Part shown: one piece after another, positions 7,995 to 29,312 of the stretch
Layout: each line of letters opens with the position of its first letter
How positions within the stretch are numbered: the first letter of the stretch is position 1
Source: a virus
Virus record (IMG/VR): IMGVR_UViG_3300029787_000230
Span: 1-29,312 of that record
Length of the DNA: 29,312 bases
Direction: 5' to 3' (one strand)
Position numbers and translations under genes: made by a program
The notes under the pieces: model-generated
Database searches by the model: none
Told to the model about the DNA's origin: nothing
What the model saw: only the letters and a program-made list of their open reading frames with translations

Positions 7995-8001
7995 GACAAT
8001 C

Positions 8002-8121
8002 TTAGATTGCAAACAATAAGATTGTGAGAAGTATTAGACCACCGAAGATCAAGAGTGCTGATAAGGTGTCTAGTAGTTTCCAGAGTATGGATTTATTGCG
8101 ACGATCATATCGTGTGTACAT
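8002..8121 (-). CDS. Tiny single-span membrane protein
   Basis: A 39-residue ORF starting MYTRYDRRNKS with a strong AGGAGG 6 bases before the ATG and a TAATG overlap with the preceding gene's stop. A basic N-terminus is followed by one membrane helix (about residues 20-38, LSALLIFGGLILLTILLFAI) that ends the protein. The basic N-terminus predicts N-in topology. Coupling, ribosome site and clean topology make it credible despite its size. A role in modifying the host membrane early in infection is possible but unproven. Confidence 0.65.
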   Translation of the reverse strand: MYTRYDRRNKSILWKLLDTLSALLIFGGLILLTILLFAI

Positions 8122-8465
8122 TAGCTACCTCCTTTTTTTCTTGAATGAATCATGTTTAGTAAGAATTGTTCGAAGTGTTCGACGACTGAGCCTAGCGCAT
8201 ATCCGATGTTCAATGCTTCATACATGTCTGTACCTGTTTCTTGTTGGTCTTTTATGTAAGCTTGAAATTTGTCCTGATGTGCGCGATGAGCTGTGAGTTT
8301 TAACATGTAACGCAATGACTCTTCGAATCTTGGAATCATGTATGCGATGTCTTCACTGGTTGCATGTCCTTTGCGTCCGATCTGTTGATCCATTGATTTG
8401 AGTGCAAACATACAATCTTGTAAGTTCTCAATAGCTTCGTCGTAATTCTTATCTGATATATACAT
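8121..8465 (-). CDS. Hypothetical helical protein
   Basis: A 114-residue, almost entirely helical soluble protein starting MYISDKNYDEAIENLQDCM. It has histidine-rich (KLTAHRAHQDKF) and acidic stretches and a basic C-terminus (HSRKKGGS). It is coupled to the tiny membrane protein downstream by TAATG and lies about 60 bases behind the 245-residue early gene. No family recognised; it could be a helical-bundle partner of one of its neighbours. Confidence 0.65.
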   Translation of the reverse strand: MYISDKNYDEAIENLQDCMFALKSMDQQIGRKGHATSEDIAYMIPRFEESLRYMLKLTAHRAHQDKFQAYIKDQQETGTDMYEALNIGYALGSVVEHFEQFLLNMIHSRKKGGS

Positions 8466-8523
8466 TGTAATCTCCTTTGTGTGAGAGCCACTCTTTTTAT
8501 CGAGTGACTCTCGTTGATGTAAC

Positions 8524-9261
8524 CTACAGTTCTAGTTCTGTAGAAGCTTGAGCTTTGAGACCAAGAGTCTTTTTGATCTGATTAGCCTTTGCTGTTTGAT
8601 CTTCCTTTACCTTAGTGGCAAAGTGTTGCTCAACCTTTTTGATAGTCTCAGGCTTGATGTAGATGTCACCATCGTTTAGTTTCATGAACCATGATTCCAT
8701 CCAAGCTTGAAACATCTTCATTTTTACAACTGTCTCTGAGTTGTAGTTGATTCGATCCTGTCTGTGATTAGCTTGAACGTCATCGAGTTTATCATCAGCC
8801 AATGAAGTGTTCAGGTTGTCCTGATCTTTCATGATCATCTGCTCAAGTCCAGTGATGGAGTTATAATTATCCATGCCAGTTGAGTTCCATAGATACTTTG
8901 GAAGTAATCTTTTGAAACCATATTGACCGATAGGAACCATCTCGTCAGATTCAACGTACTCGTCATCGCCGACACGCTTTTTATGAACATGAACTTTGTT
9001 ACCAGCTGGATCTGCATCGACGTCAAACTGAAGGTCATGTGGATTGTACCATTGACCCTCTCCTTCAAAGAACCACTCGATGTGTGCAAGCGACTTGCCG
9101 ATGTCCATGTCTGCGAACTGCTGATCCAGATCTTTACTCTTGGACTTATGCATCTTGTCCAATGATGGAGCGATGAACTTGGTACGAAAACTAGACAATT
9201 GAGTAGTACCAAATCTCAAGAGCTTTTCACATTCAGTTACAATCTTTGTTATATTAGACAT
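8524..9261 (-). CDS. Early protein of unknown function
   Basis: A 245-residue soluble protein starting MSNITKIVTECEKLLRFG with GGAG before the ATG. It has mixed alpha/beta composition; the middle is rich in aspartate and tryptophan (EWFFEGEGQWYNPHDLQFDVDADPAGNKVHVHKK). The C-terminal third is lysine-rich and helical (KVEQHFATKVKEDQTAKANQIKKT). No nucleotide-binding, nuclease or HTH motif is evident. It is the first gene of the leftward early block, next to the large RNA, so it may be the earliest expressed product and a candidate host-takeover protein. Confidence 0.7.
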   Translation of the reverse strand: MSNITKIVTECEKLLRFGTTQLSSFRTKFIAPSLDKMHKSKSKDLDQQFADMDIGKSLAHIEWFFEGEGQWYNPHDLQFDVDADPAGNKVHVHKKRVGDDEYVESDEMVPIGQYGFKRLLPKYLWNSTGMDNYNSITGLEQMIMKDQDNLNTSLADDKLDDVQANHRQDRINYNSETVVKMKMFQAWMESWFMKLNDGDIYIKPETIKKVEQHFATKVKEDQTAKANQIKKTLGLKAQASTELEL

Positions 9262-9294
9262 TACTGTCTCCTTTTAAGTTAAGTTAAAATTTAA

Positions 9295-9324
9295 TTAATA
9301 CGTACACTATTTAATCAAAAACAA
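9295..9324 (-). promoter_or_regulatory. Weak leftward promoter candidate
   Basis: On the minus strand TTGTTT (9319-9324) and TATTAA (9295-9300) are separated by 18 bases in a very AT-rich stretch ahead of the gene starting at 9261. The GATTAAATAG string within it also occurs upstream of the stronger promoter near 7376-7386. Boxes are only partial matches, so this is tentative. Confidence 0.35.
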
Positions 9325-9733
9325 TGTCCAATCCAGAACGTGAACCGATGGATGGATACAGGATTCCGACAAGGGAAACACGATGAGACGACCTGCCTGT
9401 CGAAGAGATGTTTCCAAGATATCCTAGGTCGGTCGGTATGGAGGGGATATCTTCTGTGTCGGAACGGCGAGCGAAGCGTCTTGCGCCGCTGAGAGAAAAT
9501 CTCCCAGAGCTCTCAGCTATAGCAACAGATACATTTTCTCCAGTCCTTTATCTATCCACCCCTCTTGGGGTCTTGATCGGTTTACGTTATGGGGAAGCGC
9601 ATAGCGTAGAGCGATTGCGCTGGGCAATTGGATGGTCTTTTTTTTTATTGATGCCACGCTGAGTCGTTAGGTGAGTAAAGGCTGGTTCTTCACAGTCTTT
9701 ACTTGCCGACCTCTTTTGAGCCTCCTCCTGATC

Positions 9734-9788
9734 TGCGTCTATCAGCAGATCGAAAGCTGTAGAGATTTTGTGCATGCGTCTATCGGCA
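9734..9788 (+). repeat. Twin hairpins with matching loops
   Basis: TGCGTCTATCAGCA (9734-9747) and TGCGTCTATCGGCA (9775-9788) differ at one position. Each is the loop plus closing pairs of a hairpin: stem 9730-9736/9745-9751 and stem 9766-9777/9786-9797. The outer parts of the stems are unrelated in sequence, so the loop and closing pairs appear to be the selected element. Confidence 0.6.
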
Positions 9789-10117
9789 TGTGCAAAAACC
9801 TACAGATTGCATGCGACCACAGAAGTCTTTGCTGGAGGAGGTGAATTAGAGGGAACGGTGGATGTCCAGAACAATAACGGACAGAGCAATGTGGATGTTA
9901 GGCATGTCGTCTTCATCATGCCTTGCACCACATACAGCGGTAGGATGTCTGAATGATCAAACTTTTCAGTCTGAAGTTTGTCGACTGCCGTTCGAGTACG
10001 GTATCGCATTATCAATGCAATTGATTCGTGGTGTGCTGACGAGACAGCACGTCCGATACAACGCGGCAGAGAGTGAGCCTCACAGCGTATTTTACTGGCT
10101 CTTGCCAGCTTGAACAC

Positions 10118-10153
10118 GAGTGTTTAAAATAGGATGGGATGTCACTCTTTTTT
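10118..10153 (+). terminator. Candidate terminator of the large RNA
   Basis: GAGTG (10118-10122) pairs with CACTC (10143-10147), directly followed by six T residues (10148-10153). The stem is short and the loop is 20 nt, so strength is doubtful. The position, just after the last helix of the large RNA and before the small terminase, fits a 3' end. Confidence 0.35.
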
Positions 10154-10211
10154 GTAGAATGTGAAAATAAGAGGTTGACAGACAGACAGAAAATACGGCA
10201 CAGTTGACGGC

Positions 10212-10580
10212 ATGACACTTGTAAAGATAACCGAGAAACAGAAGAAGCTGGTTGATACGTTAGTAGCAAAAGGCTGTAGCATTAAACAGGCAAGTGATGA
10301 AGCTGGGTACGCAAAGGGTGAATCAGGTAGGGTTACTGCTAGCAAGGCGTTGAAGATACCACATGTGCAACAGTACATGATGCAAGCAATAGCAGAGAGT
10401 ATGGGTATTAACGCTACGAAAGCACTGAACAAGATTGTACAGCTATCAAGTAATGCCAAGTCTGAATACGTAAGCCTTGAAGCTAGTAAGGATATACTTG
10501 ATAGAGCTGGCTTTAAAGCACCAGATAAAGTAATGCATAGTCATGTTGGTAATGTAAATGTAAAGATTGATTTGTCTTGA
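10212..10580 (+). CDS. terS: Terminase small subunit
   Basis: A 122-residue protein. The N-terminal pattern (ITEKQKKLVDTLVAKGCSIKQASDEAGYAKGESGRVTASKALKIPHVQQYM) is that of small terminases. The helix-turn-helix-like SIKQASDEAGYA and the following A-x-x-L-x-x-P-x-V motif mark the DNA-recognition domain. The C-terminal part is the likely oligomerisation and large-subunit contact region. It recognises phage DNA and loads the packaging motor encoded at 12092. No good ribosome site is seen. A TTGACA box lies at 10175-10180 without a convincing -10. It is separated from the large subunit by about 1.5 kb of small genes. Confidence 0.75.
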   Translation: MTLVKITEKQKKLVDTLVAKGCSIKQASDEAGYAKGESGRVTASKALKIPHVQQYMMQAIAESMGINATKALNKIVQLSSNAKSEYVSLEASKDILDRAGFKAPDKVMHSHVGNVNVKIDLS

Positions 10581-11908: not shown

Positions 11909-12105
11909 CGTTCATAAATAAACTAAAACCAGAAGAACACAGAAGCCTTAGACAAAAAGTAAAAGAGATTCACTTTCAATACTTCGATGAGAAGCATGGA
12001 GCTTCCTTCGTCACTAATAAAATGCTAGATAACATTATTGAAAACTTAGGTGAGAAAGTTGCCCAGCAAATGATTAAACAAGCTGTGGATAATGACAGAC
12101 TTTAA
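11905..12105 (+). CDS. Small helical protein before large terminase
   Basis: A 66-residue protein read from a TTG at 11905, with AGGAG about 7 bases upstream; no ATG is available. It is helical and moderately basic (KLKPEEHRSLRQKVKEIHFQ), with a conserved-looking C-terminal helix (IIENLGEKVAQQMIKQAVD). It overlaps the large terminase start by 14 bases, so the two are probably co-translated, and a packaging-related role is possible. No family named. Confidence 0.6.
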   Translation: MTFINKLKPEEHRSLRQKVKEIHFQYFDEKHGASFVTNKMLDNIIENLGEKVAQQMIKQAVDNDRL

Positions 12106-13612
12106 ATATAAACCTGACGGTACTGTACTTAAAAATTTTATGAAGGATGATAGTTTCTTTCGAGGCATCCGAGGCCCAGTTGGTTCTGGTAAATCTGTTG
12201 GTTGCTGTGTTGAAGTATTCAGAAGAGCATTAGAGCAGAAGCCAAATGAAGATGGAGTTCGTAAATCACGATGGGCTGTTATAAGAAATACCAATCCCCA
12301 GCTAAGAACAACTACGATAAAGACATGGTTAGACTGGTTTCCCGAATCGGATTGGGGTAACTTTCACTGGTCTGTTCCTTATACTCACCACATAAAAGTG
12401 AATGATCTTGACCTTGAAGTTATCTTTCTGGCTCTCGATAGACCAGAAGATGTGAAGAAACTTTTATCACTAGAGCTTACTGGTATATGGATTAATGAAG
12501 CAAGAGAGATTCCCAAGAGTATTGTTGATGCTTGTACTATGCGTGTTGGTAGATTCCCAAGTATGCGAGAGGGTGGTGCTAGTTGGTCTGGTGTTATCTG
12601 TGATACTAACGCACCAGAGGAAGATCACTGGTGGGCAATCATGTCAGGGGAGGTTCCTATTCCAGATCACATTCCTCGAGAACAGGCTACCATGTTGGTA
12701 AAGCCTGACAACTGGAGATTCTTTGCCCAGCCTCCAGCGATGAAGGAACATATAAATGATAGAAAAGAAATAACTTCTTATTCTCTGAATAAAGATGCTG
12801 AGAACAAAAAAAATATTCTTGGTACGTACTATACAAATTTAATCCGAGGTAAGACTAAGAACTGGATTGATGTCTATGTAATGAATAGGTTAGGTTTGAT
12901 TCAAGAAGGCAAGCCAGTTTATCCTGACTTTCTTTCTGAAACTCACATAGCTGATGAAGAAATACCTATTGCTATCGGTATACCTTTATATGTTGGTATT
13001 GATTTTGGTTTGACTCCTTCTGCTGTGTTTGGGCAAAAGGTTCGAGGTCGATGGTTGGTACAAGCTGAGATTGTTGCTGTTGATATGGGTGTAGTTCGTT
13101 TTGCAGAGTTGCTTAGACAAGAGATAGCTACACGATTTAATGGTCTTGATGTTTATATATATGGTGACCCAGCTGGTGACTTTAGGGCGCAAACAGATGA
13201 ATCAACTCCCTTTCAGATATTAAGGGGAGCTGGATTAAAAGCTGTGCCAGCTCCTAGTAATAGTGTTGATCTTAGGTTGGAATCTGTTTCTTCTCAACTC
13301 ACTAAGATGGCAGAAGGGTTGCCAGCATTTATGATAGATAGAAGATGTGTTACATTGATAAAAGGTTTTCAAGGTGGCTATTGTTATAGACGCATGCAAG
13401 TATCAGGAGAACGTTATGATGATAAGCCTGATAAAAATATGTACTCACACATACATGATGCCTTGCAATATATGATGTTAGGTGCTGGTGAAGGACGTAG
13501 TTTGATGTCTGGTCAGAAACCAATCAAGGCTTTCAATGCAAGAAAAGGCTTTGATATTTTTAGAAGATCGCCTAATAATAAGAAAAGTAGTTCATTTTGG
13601 AATAGACTATAA
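12092..13612 (+). CDS. terL: Terminase large subunit
   Basis: A 506-residue packaging ATPase/nuclease. The ATPase domain shows Walker A GPVGSGKS at residues 28-35, an arginine-rich WAVIRNTNPQLRTTT at 61-75, and a Walker B-like strand GIWINEAREI at 131-140 with the acidic residues. The nuclease domain begins with VGIDFGLTP (D304) and continues with YGDPAGD (D359). A histidine/aspartate motif, YSHIHDALQY (D456), near the C-terminus completes a likely RNase H-type metal site. It pumps DNA into the procapsid through the portal encoded at 13920 and cuts the concatemer. Length is normal for the family. Confidence 0.92.
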   Translation: MTDFKYKPDGTVLKNFMKDDSFFRGIRGPVGSGKSVGCCVEVFRRALEQKPNEDGVRKSRWAVIRNTNPQLRTTTIKTWLDWFPESDWGNFHWSVPYTHHIKVNDLDLEVIFLALDRPEDVKKLLSLELTGIWINEAREIPKSIVDACTMRVGRFPSMREGGASWSGVICDTNAPEEDHWWAIMSGEVPIPDHIPREQATMLVKPDNWRFFAQPPAMKEHINDRKEITSYSLNKDAENKKNILGTYYTNLIRGKTKNWIDVYVMNRLGLIQEGKPVYPDFLSETHIADEEIPIAIGIPLYVGIDFGLTPSAVFGQKVRGRWLVQAEIVAVDMGVVRFAELLRQEIATRFNGLDVYIYGDPAGDFRAQTDESTPFQILRGAGLKAVPAPSNSVDLRLESVSSQLTKMAEGLPAFMIDRRCVTLIKGFQGGYCYRRMQVSGERYDDKPDKNMYSHIHDALQYMMLGAGEGRSLMSGQKPIKAFNARKGFDIFRRSPNNKKSSSFWNRL

Positions 13613-27912: not shown

Positions 27913-29312
27913 ATGACAATATCAGTTTCAAATAATACGCCTAGAGTATCGTATGCTGTATCTGAGGGTGCAACGCAGACATCATTTACAGTTAACTTTG
28001 AGTTCTTTGCAGATGCAGACCTAAATGTATTTGTTGATAATGTATTAAAAACAATAACTACTCACTACACAGTATCAGGAGGCAATGGTTCAACTGGTAC
28101 AGTTACAATGAGTGTGACTGGTGCAAGTGGTGGTTCGACAGTTGTTATAACTAGAGACATCGCACTCGAGAGAACTACTGACTTCCCAACTCAAGGTGCT
28201 TTTAATATTACTTCTCTGAATACTGAGCTAGATAAATTAGTTGCAATAGACGCTGATGTTGATGATACAATAGGAAGGTCAATAAGACTACAAGATTCTG
28301 ATGCTTCTGCATCTATGGAGCTACCTCTCAAAGCATCAAGAGTAGGCACAGTATTAGGATTTAATGCAACAACTGGTGCGGCAGAAGCTGGACCAACTAT
28401 TACTGCTGTTCAAAGTTTAGCTGATGTAACTACATCTATTAATCTATTGGGTACTTCTGCTGTGGTAGAAGACATGGGATTACTTGCTACGTCAGCAGTT
28501 ATAGAAGATATGGGATTGTTAGCTACATCTGGAAATATAACAGCAATGGGATTGCTGGGTGTAAGTAGCGTGATTACAGACATGAGTATTTTAGGAACAT
28601 CTGCAATTGTAGAGGACATGGGATTTCTTGGAACAAGTGCCAACGTAACAGCTATGGGTCATTTAGGAACGAGTGCTAATGTAACTGCTATGGGCAAGTT
28701 AGGTAATGACGCTACTGTAGCTGACATGGCAATTCTCGGCACAGATGATGTAGTTGCAGACATGAATACTCTCGCAAATTCTAGCATCGTTGATGACCTA
28801 AATATTTTAGCTACATCCGACATCGTTACTGACATGGCTTTGCTTGCGACATCAGCCAATGTAACCGCAATGGGTCATCTTGGTACATCTGCAAATGTAA
28901 CTGCTATGGGATTATTGGGTACAAGTGCTGTTGTTACCGACATGGGTTTGCTCGGTACAAGTGCTGTTGTTACTGATATGGATTTATTAGCAACATCATC
29001 TAATATTACGAACATGGCAACTTTAGGTGCTAGTGGAGTTGTATCAAATATTGCTACTGTTGCTGGTGCTGTTACAAATGTAAACACAGTTGCTACTAAT
29101 GTAAGTGGAGTTAACTCTTTTGCAGAACGATACAGAATAGCATCATCTGCACCGACAAGTTCTCTCGATGTAGGTGATTTGTATTTTGATACTACTGCTA
29201 ACGAACTAAAGGTTTATAAGTCTAGTGGTTGGTCAGCGGCTGGCTCAACTGTAAACGGAACGTCAGCACGATTTACCTATACGATATCTGGTACACCAAC
29301 AGCGGTAACAGG
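27913..29312 (+). CDS. Tail fibre protein, 3' end outside window
   Basis: The frame opens at the ATG at 27913, 3 bases after the ejection protein, and runs to the end of the window (466 codons visible). The first ~150 residues fit the T7 gp17-type attachment domain: PRVSYAVSEGATQTSFTVNF, a VFVDNVLKTITTHYTVSGG segment, VVITRDIALERTTDFP and NTELDKLVAIDADVDDTIG. Residues 178-381 are 17 copies of a 12-residue repeat. After it comes a GDLYFDTTANELKVYKSSGW element often found at fibre domain borders. The missing C-terminus should hold the receptor-binding tip. Confidence 0.85.
   Translation, partial: MTISVSNNTPRVSYAVSEGATQTSFTVNFEFFADADLNVFVDNVLKTITTHYTVSGGNGSTGTVTMSVTGASGGSTVVITRDIALERTTDFPTQGAFNITSLNTELDKLVAIDADVDDTIGRSIRLQDSDASASMELPLKASRVGTVLGFNATTGAAEAGPTITAVQSLADVTTSINLLGTSAVVEDMGLLATSAVIEDMGLLATSGNITAMGLLGVSSVITDMSILGTSAIVEDMGFLGTSANVTAMGHLGTSANVTAMGKLGNDATVADMAILGTDDVVADMNTLANSSIVDDLNILATSDIVTDMALLATSANVTAMGHLGTSANVTAMGLLGTSAVVTDMGLLGTSAVVTDMDLLATSSNITNMATLGASGVVSNIATVAGAVTNVNTVATNVSGVNSFAERYRIASSAPTSSLDVGDLYFDTTANELKVYKSSGWSAAGSTVNGTSARFTYTISGTPTAVT
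28444..29055 (+). repeat. 17 tandem 36-bp (12-residue) repeats
   Basis: Consensus unit LLGTSAxVTDMG. Units are colinear with no insertions or deletions; leucine at position 2, a hydrophobic residue at 8 and methionine at 11 are the most constant. Several units, for example HLGTSANVTAMG, occur twice, pointing to recent duplication, while synonymous codons vary. The regular spacing suggests a trimeric shaft. Confidence 0.9.

Follow-up and report, generated by a model that had tools for sequence, protein, structure and literature searches.

A probable modular noncoding RNA at a hypervariable locus beside the terminase genes of a phage clade

Introduction

What does a phage keep in almost a kilobase of DNA that lies between its two gene arms? 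The window analysed here is the whole of a 29,312-base virus record, in which a 950-nt gap (9262-10211) separates these arms. The genes left of 9261 run mostly leftward and include a RecE-like exonuclease and a Holliday junction resolvase, among others; those right of 10212 run rightward and encode TerS, TerL, a head-tail adaptor, a major head protein and an internal virion protein. Judged by terminase, the nearest phage in culture is Pelagibacter phage EXVC031P Hodr (TerL 64%, TerS 59%), which suggests that the host is likely Pelagibacter-like and marine, as far as a distant cultured relative can indicate. Elsewhere in the window, a small, very basic DUF6321 protein (PF19846; 11044-11361), kept between TerS and TerL in most relatives, is a possible nucleic-acid binder, and a tail-fibre-like ORF (28300-28950) carries many near-repeats of the LLATSANVTAMGHLGTS type.

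A first-pass annotation had proposed that positions 9361-10153 hold a large ornate RNA. To our knowledge, few classes of such phage RNAs are known, and their functions are still poorly understood. We report that the gap is noncoding, strongly folded and supported by covariation, and that its structures turn over as modules among close relatives. The explanation that we favour overall, with modest confidence, is a free-standing, modular noncoding RNA that would serve as a trans-acting scaffold and probably faces the host.

Results

Coding capacity, composition and fold of the gap

The longest frames inside the gap (105 aa on the minus strand, 83 and 62 aa on the plus strand) are disrupted in most homologues, and most indels among the gap homologues are not multiples of three. 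On these grounds protein coding of the gap was rejected. The first-pass annotation had seen no credible gene in the interval and had named a conserved coding frame as evidence against its RNA; comparison of the homologues revealed no such frame. Its other descriptive claims also held. The GC content of 9361-10153, said to exceed that of the structural genes, is 48.4% versus 37.6%, and the predicted fold contains well over the 15 helices that had been counted by eye. The proposed boundaries are about right as well: homology spans the entire gap, and the RNA likely covers about 9320-10153 (Table 1).

For 9361-10153 the folding energy is -301.7 kcal/mol on the plus strand (z -6.66 relative to dinucleotide-shuffled sequence) and -257.5 kcal/mol on the minus strand (z -5.4), compared with z values of +0.5 to -3.6 for coding controls from the same window. 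The cumulative GC skew of 8001-10400 stops falling and begins to rise around the RNA locus. This turn fits divergent transcription and could also mark an origin.

Table 1. Features of the gap and its two neighbouring genes (window coordinates)
Feature	Position	Strand	Remarks
245-aa ORF, divergent, upstream neighbour of gap	8524-9261	-	no known family
ORF-free gap	9262-10211	+	syntenic in relatives, usually about 300-1200 nt
Conserved AT-rich element TAATACGTACACTATTTAATC	9296-9316	+	kept in closest homologues; single copy in window
Proposed large noncoding RNA	9320-10153	+	fold z -6.66, covariation, strand bias, U-run at end
Hairpin with invariant G-rich loop	9416-9453	+	five different stem sequences in homologues
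15-bp hairpin	9670-9707	+	other stems in its place in homologues
Multibranch domain H1-H4	9710-9852	+	10 pairs with double-sided changes in H1-H3
H1	9710-9713/9849-9852	+	multibranch domain
H2	9721-9728/9834-9841	+	multibranch domain, junction helix
H3	9729-9736/9745-9752	+	multibranch domain; GUCUAUC loop
H4	9770-9777/9786-9793	+	multibranch domain; GUCUAUC loop
Long hairpin domain H5-H7	9879-9950	+	H7 9889-9906/9917-9933; 10 pairs with double-sided changes
H-type pseudoknot	9949-9980	+	one compensatory change per stem
Hairpins H8-H10	9987-10050	+	three most conserved hairpins
3' domain	10070-10153	+	closing helix AGAGUGA 10070-10076/UCACUCU 10142-10148, then U-run
TTGACA-containing TerS leader	10175-10211	+	conserved; separate from RNA
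TerS (terminase small subunit)	10212-10580	+	downstream neighbour of gap; phrog_2538, E 8e-14

Covariation and the functional strand

Homologues were gathered by terminase, neighbour-gene and motif scans, and the resulting alignment (A1) comprised the window and eleven other phages with a homologous RNA, several of them closely related. RNAalifold predicted 113 pairs on this 12-phage alignment, 23 of which showed double-sided changes. We set aside the predicted pairs joining the core to the TerS leader (columns 381-402 with 670-688), which are probably spurious, and removal of the doubtful long-range pairs left a 69-pair core structure that is 99.0% paired across the 12 phages. Within this core, 21 pairs carry compensatory changes on both sides, versus 7.0 +/- 1.9 in shuffles, none of 500 reaching 21, and sliding the partners reduced the number to 0-3. 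The helices thus covary strongly, where an absence of covariation had been named in advance as counting against the RNA. Compensatory changes occur in six of the ten helices counted on the alignment, and pairing of the junction helix H2 is kept through the combinations CCTCCTCC/GGAGGAGG, CCACCCTT/AAGGGTGG and GCACCATT/AATGGTGC.

The conserved helices contain 54 G-U cells, at 12 pair positions, versus 2 A-C cells. With structures derived without G-U pairs, which favour neither strand, the window family has 10 G-U cells to 2 A-C cells, and 12 families together have 81 to 36. This excess of G-U over A-C cells indicates that the plus-strand transcript is likely the functional form of the RNA. The first-pass annotation had listed G-U pairs that fit the plus strand only, and the alignment makes this case more strongly than was claimed.

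Domain architecture of the RNA

The putative RNA would be roughly 0.83 kb long, read rightwards, and would end near 10153 at the U-run 10148-10153; both ends are approximate. The predicted fold consists of semi-independent domains, beginning with a hairpin that carries a G-rich loop, followed by a multibranch domain and a long hairpin domain, then by a pseudoknot and a row of hairpins, and finishing with a closing domain at the 3' end. The AT-rich element ahead of the RNA (9296-9316), which we take to resemble a T7-type phage promoter, may be a promoter, either for the RNA or for the leftward gene.

The G-rich loop of the first hairpin, AGG-N2/3-GG-UY-GG-UNY-GG, is kept in homologues on the stem variants AAGATATCC, AAGATATCG, AACAGGTCTT, AAAATCC and AAAATTC, all of them fully paired. 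Its four invariant GG pairs make it a candidate two-tier G-quadruplex; alternatively, GGUYGG may pair with CCGACC, a conserved sequence that opens the core. Two-tier G-quadruplex motifs number 26 on the plus strand and 0 on the minus strand, with 5.4 expected, an enrichment that is only suggestive and whose count includes homologous copies and the G-tract boxes near TerS. A second loop reads GNCUAUC and has A or G after it; several hairpins carry it, both within individual window-family homologues and across them. It is also found on short stems in the relatives L025, L105 and L063, as a candidate cross-family enrichment; a systematic search for hairpin loops common to several families returned only two short tetraloops.

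The pseudoknot is formed by the stems CUGAA 9949-9953/UUCAG 9965-9969 and CAAACUU 9958-9964/AAGUUUG 9974-9980, and its compensatory changes, one in each stem, are U-A to C-G and C-G to A-U; the covariation test of the pseudoknot used helices 1, 2, 4 and 5 of its five. Because two of its bases are shared with H5, the pseudoknot and H5 may alternate. The 3' domain encloses hairpins at 10095-10108 and 10113-10124 and finishes in the terminator-like U-run. This domain is missing in the shortened homologue L012 and is present in the otherwise different RNA of L006. TerS may have a promoter of its own, as suggested by the TTGACA box that lies between it and the RNA.

The locus in related phages

Gap lengths upstream of TerS were taken from about a hundred relatives and from 58 phages of the Hodr type. 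The slot is occupied in over 100 related phages, cultured Hodr among them, usually by a gap of about 300-1200 nt, with a median of about 380 nt in the Hodr-type phages (n=58). Nearly all of the gaps that we folded were strongly structured (plus-strand z about -4 to -16). The sequences of the slot families are mostly unrelated to one another, and eight of the ten families other than that of the window exceed column-shuffled alignments in the number of double-changed pairs (three shuffles per family); the remaining two, E_L022 and J_L053, have close members and are uninformative. A covariance model of the part from the pseudoknot to H10 matched none of the other gap RNAs, which are therefore not recognisable homologues of that part. 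A core-motif scan of bacterial and archaeal genomes gave three exact matches in unrelated MAGs, which we judged to be chance.

The turnover of the RNA is rapid. TerS is 94-95% identical among the window, L006, L042 and L008, yet their RNA cores are unrelated in sequence. L006 and L031 have the window's 3' domain joined to a different core, and an 80-nt module (CTCATAGACTA ... GTAGGCAATGTT), with its closing stem swapped, is common to the L006, L011, L042, L022 and L008 types. Among the homologues of the window RNA, turnover is faster in the 5' part of the molecule than in the 3' part. The gap is absent in the more distant terminase relatives MEP301 and BcepC6B, so that the slot seems limited to the clade of the window. 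These comparisons suggest that the locus is a hypervariable, modular RNA slot common to the whole phage clade.

Two further observations concern the flanks of the slot. The 245-aa ORF upstream of the gap, which had no match in Pfam or PHROG, ranges from 92% down to about 22% identity among relatives with near-identical TerS, and hence appears to turn over together with the RNA type. Directly before TerS and downstream of the TTGACA box, many relatives (L119, L128, L123, L133, L150, L155, L158 and L114, but not the window) carry two G-tracts (about GGGGGGG, 2-6 bases, GGGGGGG), which are possibly an operator, part of a promoter or a packaging site.

Discussion

The proposed role and its alternatives

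Covarying families in a clade-wide slot, loops kept on swapped stems and modules common to several types argue for a free-standing RNA, as do the precedents of large phage RNAs that are abundant. Some observations argue against it: the RNA lies directly upstream of TerS on its strand, L012 has no terminal U-run, and the terminator-like site at 9612-9645 could split the RNA in two. We propose that the RNA would be expressed during infection and would act in trans; as proposed for GOLLD and ROOL, it would form a scaffold, either an assembly of RNA or a particle of RNA and protein. Domains are swapped or replaced while neighbouring genes are about 95% identical, which suggests that the partner is probably a variable host factor, such as a defence or RNA-handling component, and not a phage protein. 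The host-facing role is the weakest step of this proposal, since it is drawn only from the turnover pattern, which relaxed constraint could also give.

The main rival, which we regard as unlikely, is a cis-acting leader: the structure would be a long untranslated region or attenuator at the 5' end of the late operon, of which TerS is the first gene, and would control that operon. The position of the RNA, directly upstream of TerS and on the same strand in all relatives examined, speaks for such a leader, and homologues such as L012 that end without a U-run are in keeping with it. However, in the window family a closing helix and U-run precede TerS, and a conserved TTGACA box follows the RNA. 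Moreover, the size and domain complexity of the RNA far exceed those of known leaders, and its whole core is replaced while TerS and its proximal leader stay conserved.

The gap may instead encode two RNAs, the first of about 0.3 kb with its end near 9645 and the second, downstream of it, of about 0.5 kb; we give this division about half the weight of the leader. The split would fall at the terminator-like site, where a U-run follows a hairpin near 9637-9645 at a position conserved in homologues, and the faster turnover of the 5' part is consistent with it. Against this, the U-run stands several bases off its hairpin, in contrast to a canonical terminator, and the minimum-energy fold pairs across it.

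A packaging RNA, like the pRNA of phi29 a part or guide of the terminase motor, is slightly more doubtful again. Within the clade the slot always adjoins TerS, but RNA cores that are unrelated beside TerS proteins of 94-95% identity (the window, L006, L042 and L008) indicate no co-evolution with the motor, the RNA has no Rfam match, and the terminase relatives MEP301 and BcepC6B do without the gap. With its fast replacement next to conserved genes, the RNA is more readily read as facing the host than as serving TerS in packaging. Least probable of all is a DNA element (a pac/cos site, an origin of replication or a hotspot of recombination, with inverted repeats that are merely RNA-like): both strands fold better than chance, the site coincides with the point where the gene arms diverge and the skew turns, and modular exchange resembles that of a recombination hotspot, but the bias of G-U over A-C cells (54 to 2, or 81 to 36 when the structures favour neither strand) disfavours it, as does the covariation of the pseudoknot and multibranch helices.

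We return to a free-standing, modular RNA. Tentatively, phages of this clade may exchange and rebuild large RNAs from a stock of structured modules, with constant loops, among them the quadruplex-like G-rich one, on exchanged stems, forming a superfamily that diversifies by domain shuffling in host conflict; such exchange might, as an equally tentative analogy, parallel that of protein effectors at anti-defence loci. The locus adds an RNA class that is common in its clade and has a cultured relative in Hodr, with its smaller structured gap at 12037-12373 beside TerS. Loops fixed on swapped stems and modules moved between different RNAs point at functional parts, and because the RNA turns over beside near-invariant genes, a part of large phage RNAs in host conflict can be tested directly.

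Comparison with known large RNAs

The covariance-model search that the first-pass annotation had recommended, with GOLLD, ROOL, OLE, HEARO and IMES, gave no match. Rfam 15 returned nothing at gathering score for the window and 31 related loci; the GOLLD, ROOL, OLE and HEARO models found nothing in the gap even at E up to 10; IMES and the other Rfam families had no model match in the window or gap; and no known packaging-RNA model matched when the whole of Rfam was searched. The identity of the gap with a known RNA family was accordingly rejected, and literature searches found no description of the RNA. Of the two possibilities raised earlier, a new class fits these results, and membership of GOLLD or ROOL does not. 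Extensive covarying structure together with the lack of coding places the RNA in the general kind of large ornate phage noncoding RNAs; the plus-strand G-U bias and the U-run at the end are only indirect hints of a discrete transcript.

The packaging RNA of phi29 is about 174 nt long. It resembles the window RNA as a structured phage RNA, tied to packaging by neighbourhood; the window RNA is far larger, has no Rfam match and evolves much faster than its terminase neighbour. Phage ICP1 has an ORF-less RNA of about 800 nt, which is its most abundant transcript (PMC7567579). Likened by description, ICP1 shares with the window an ORF-free space of about 1 kb, a large RNA and no tRNAs (in a lytic phage); expression of the ICP1 RNA, near lysis genes, has been shown (PMC7567579), whereas the window RNA is predicted from sequence.

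The nearest kind is that of GOLLD and ROOL, phage-borne, ornate RNAs that form RNA-only cages (PMC12286853). Comparison of the window RNA with them is an analogy of size, phage setting and complexity only. Like the window RNA, GOLLD is large, ornate and located in phages or prophages, and its 5' part is less conserved than its 3' part; ROOL is phage-borne, has a class size of 600-700 nt and contains many helices and pseudoknots (PMC12286853). The window RNA matches neither Rfam model. GOLLD is often near tRNA genes, whereas the window contains 0 tRNA genes, its RNA adjoins the terminase and its core is replaced between close relatives; it also differs from ROOL in its genomic setting, with no tRNA island. 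The best reading is that the window RNA represents an undescribed class within the large ornate phage RNAs, unusual for the shuffling of modules at a fixed locus.
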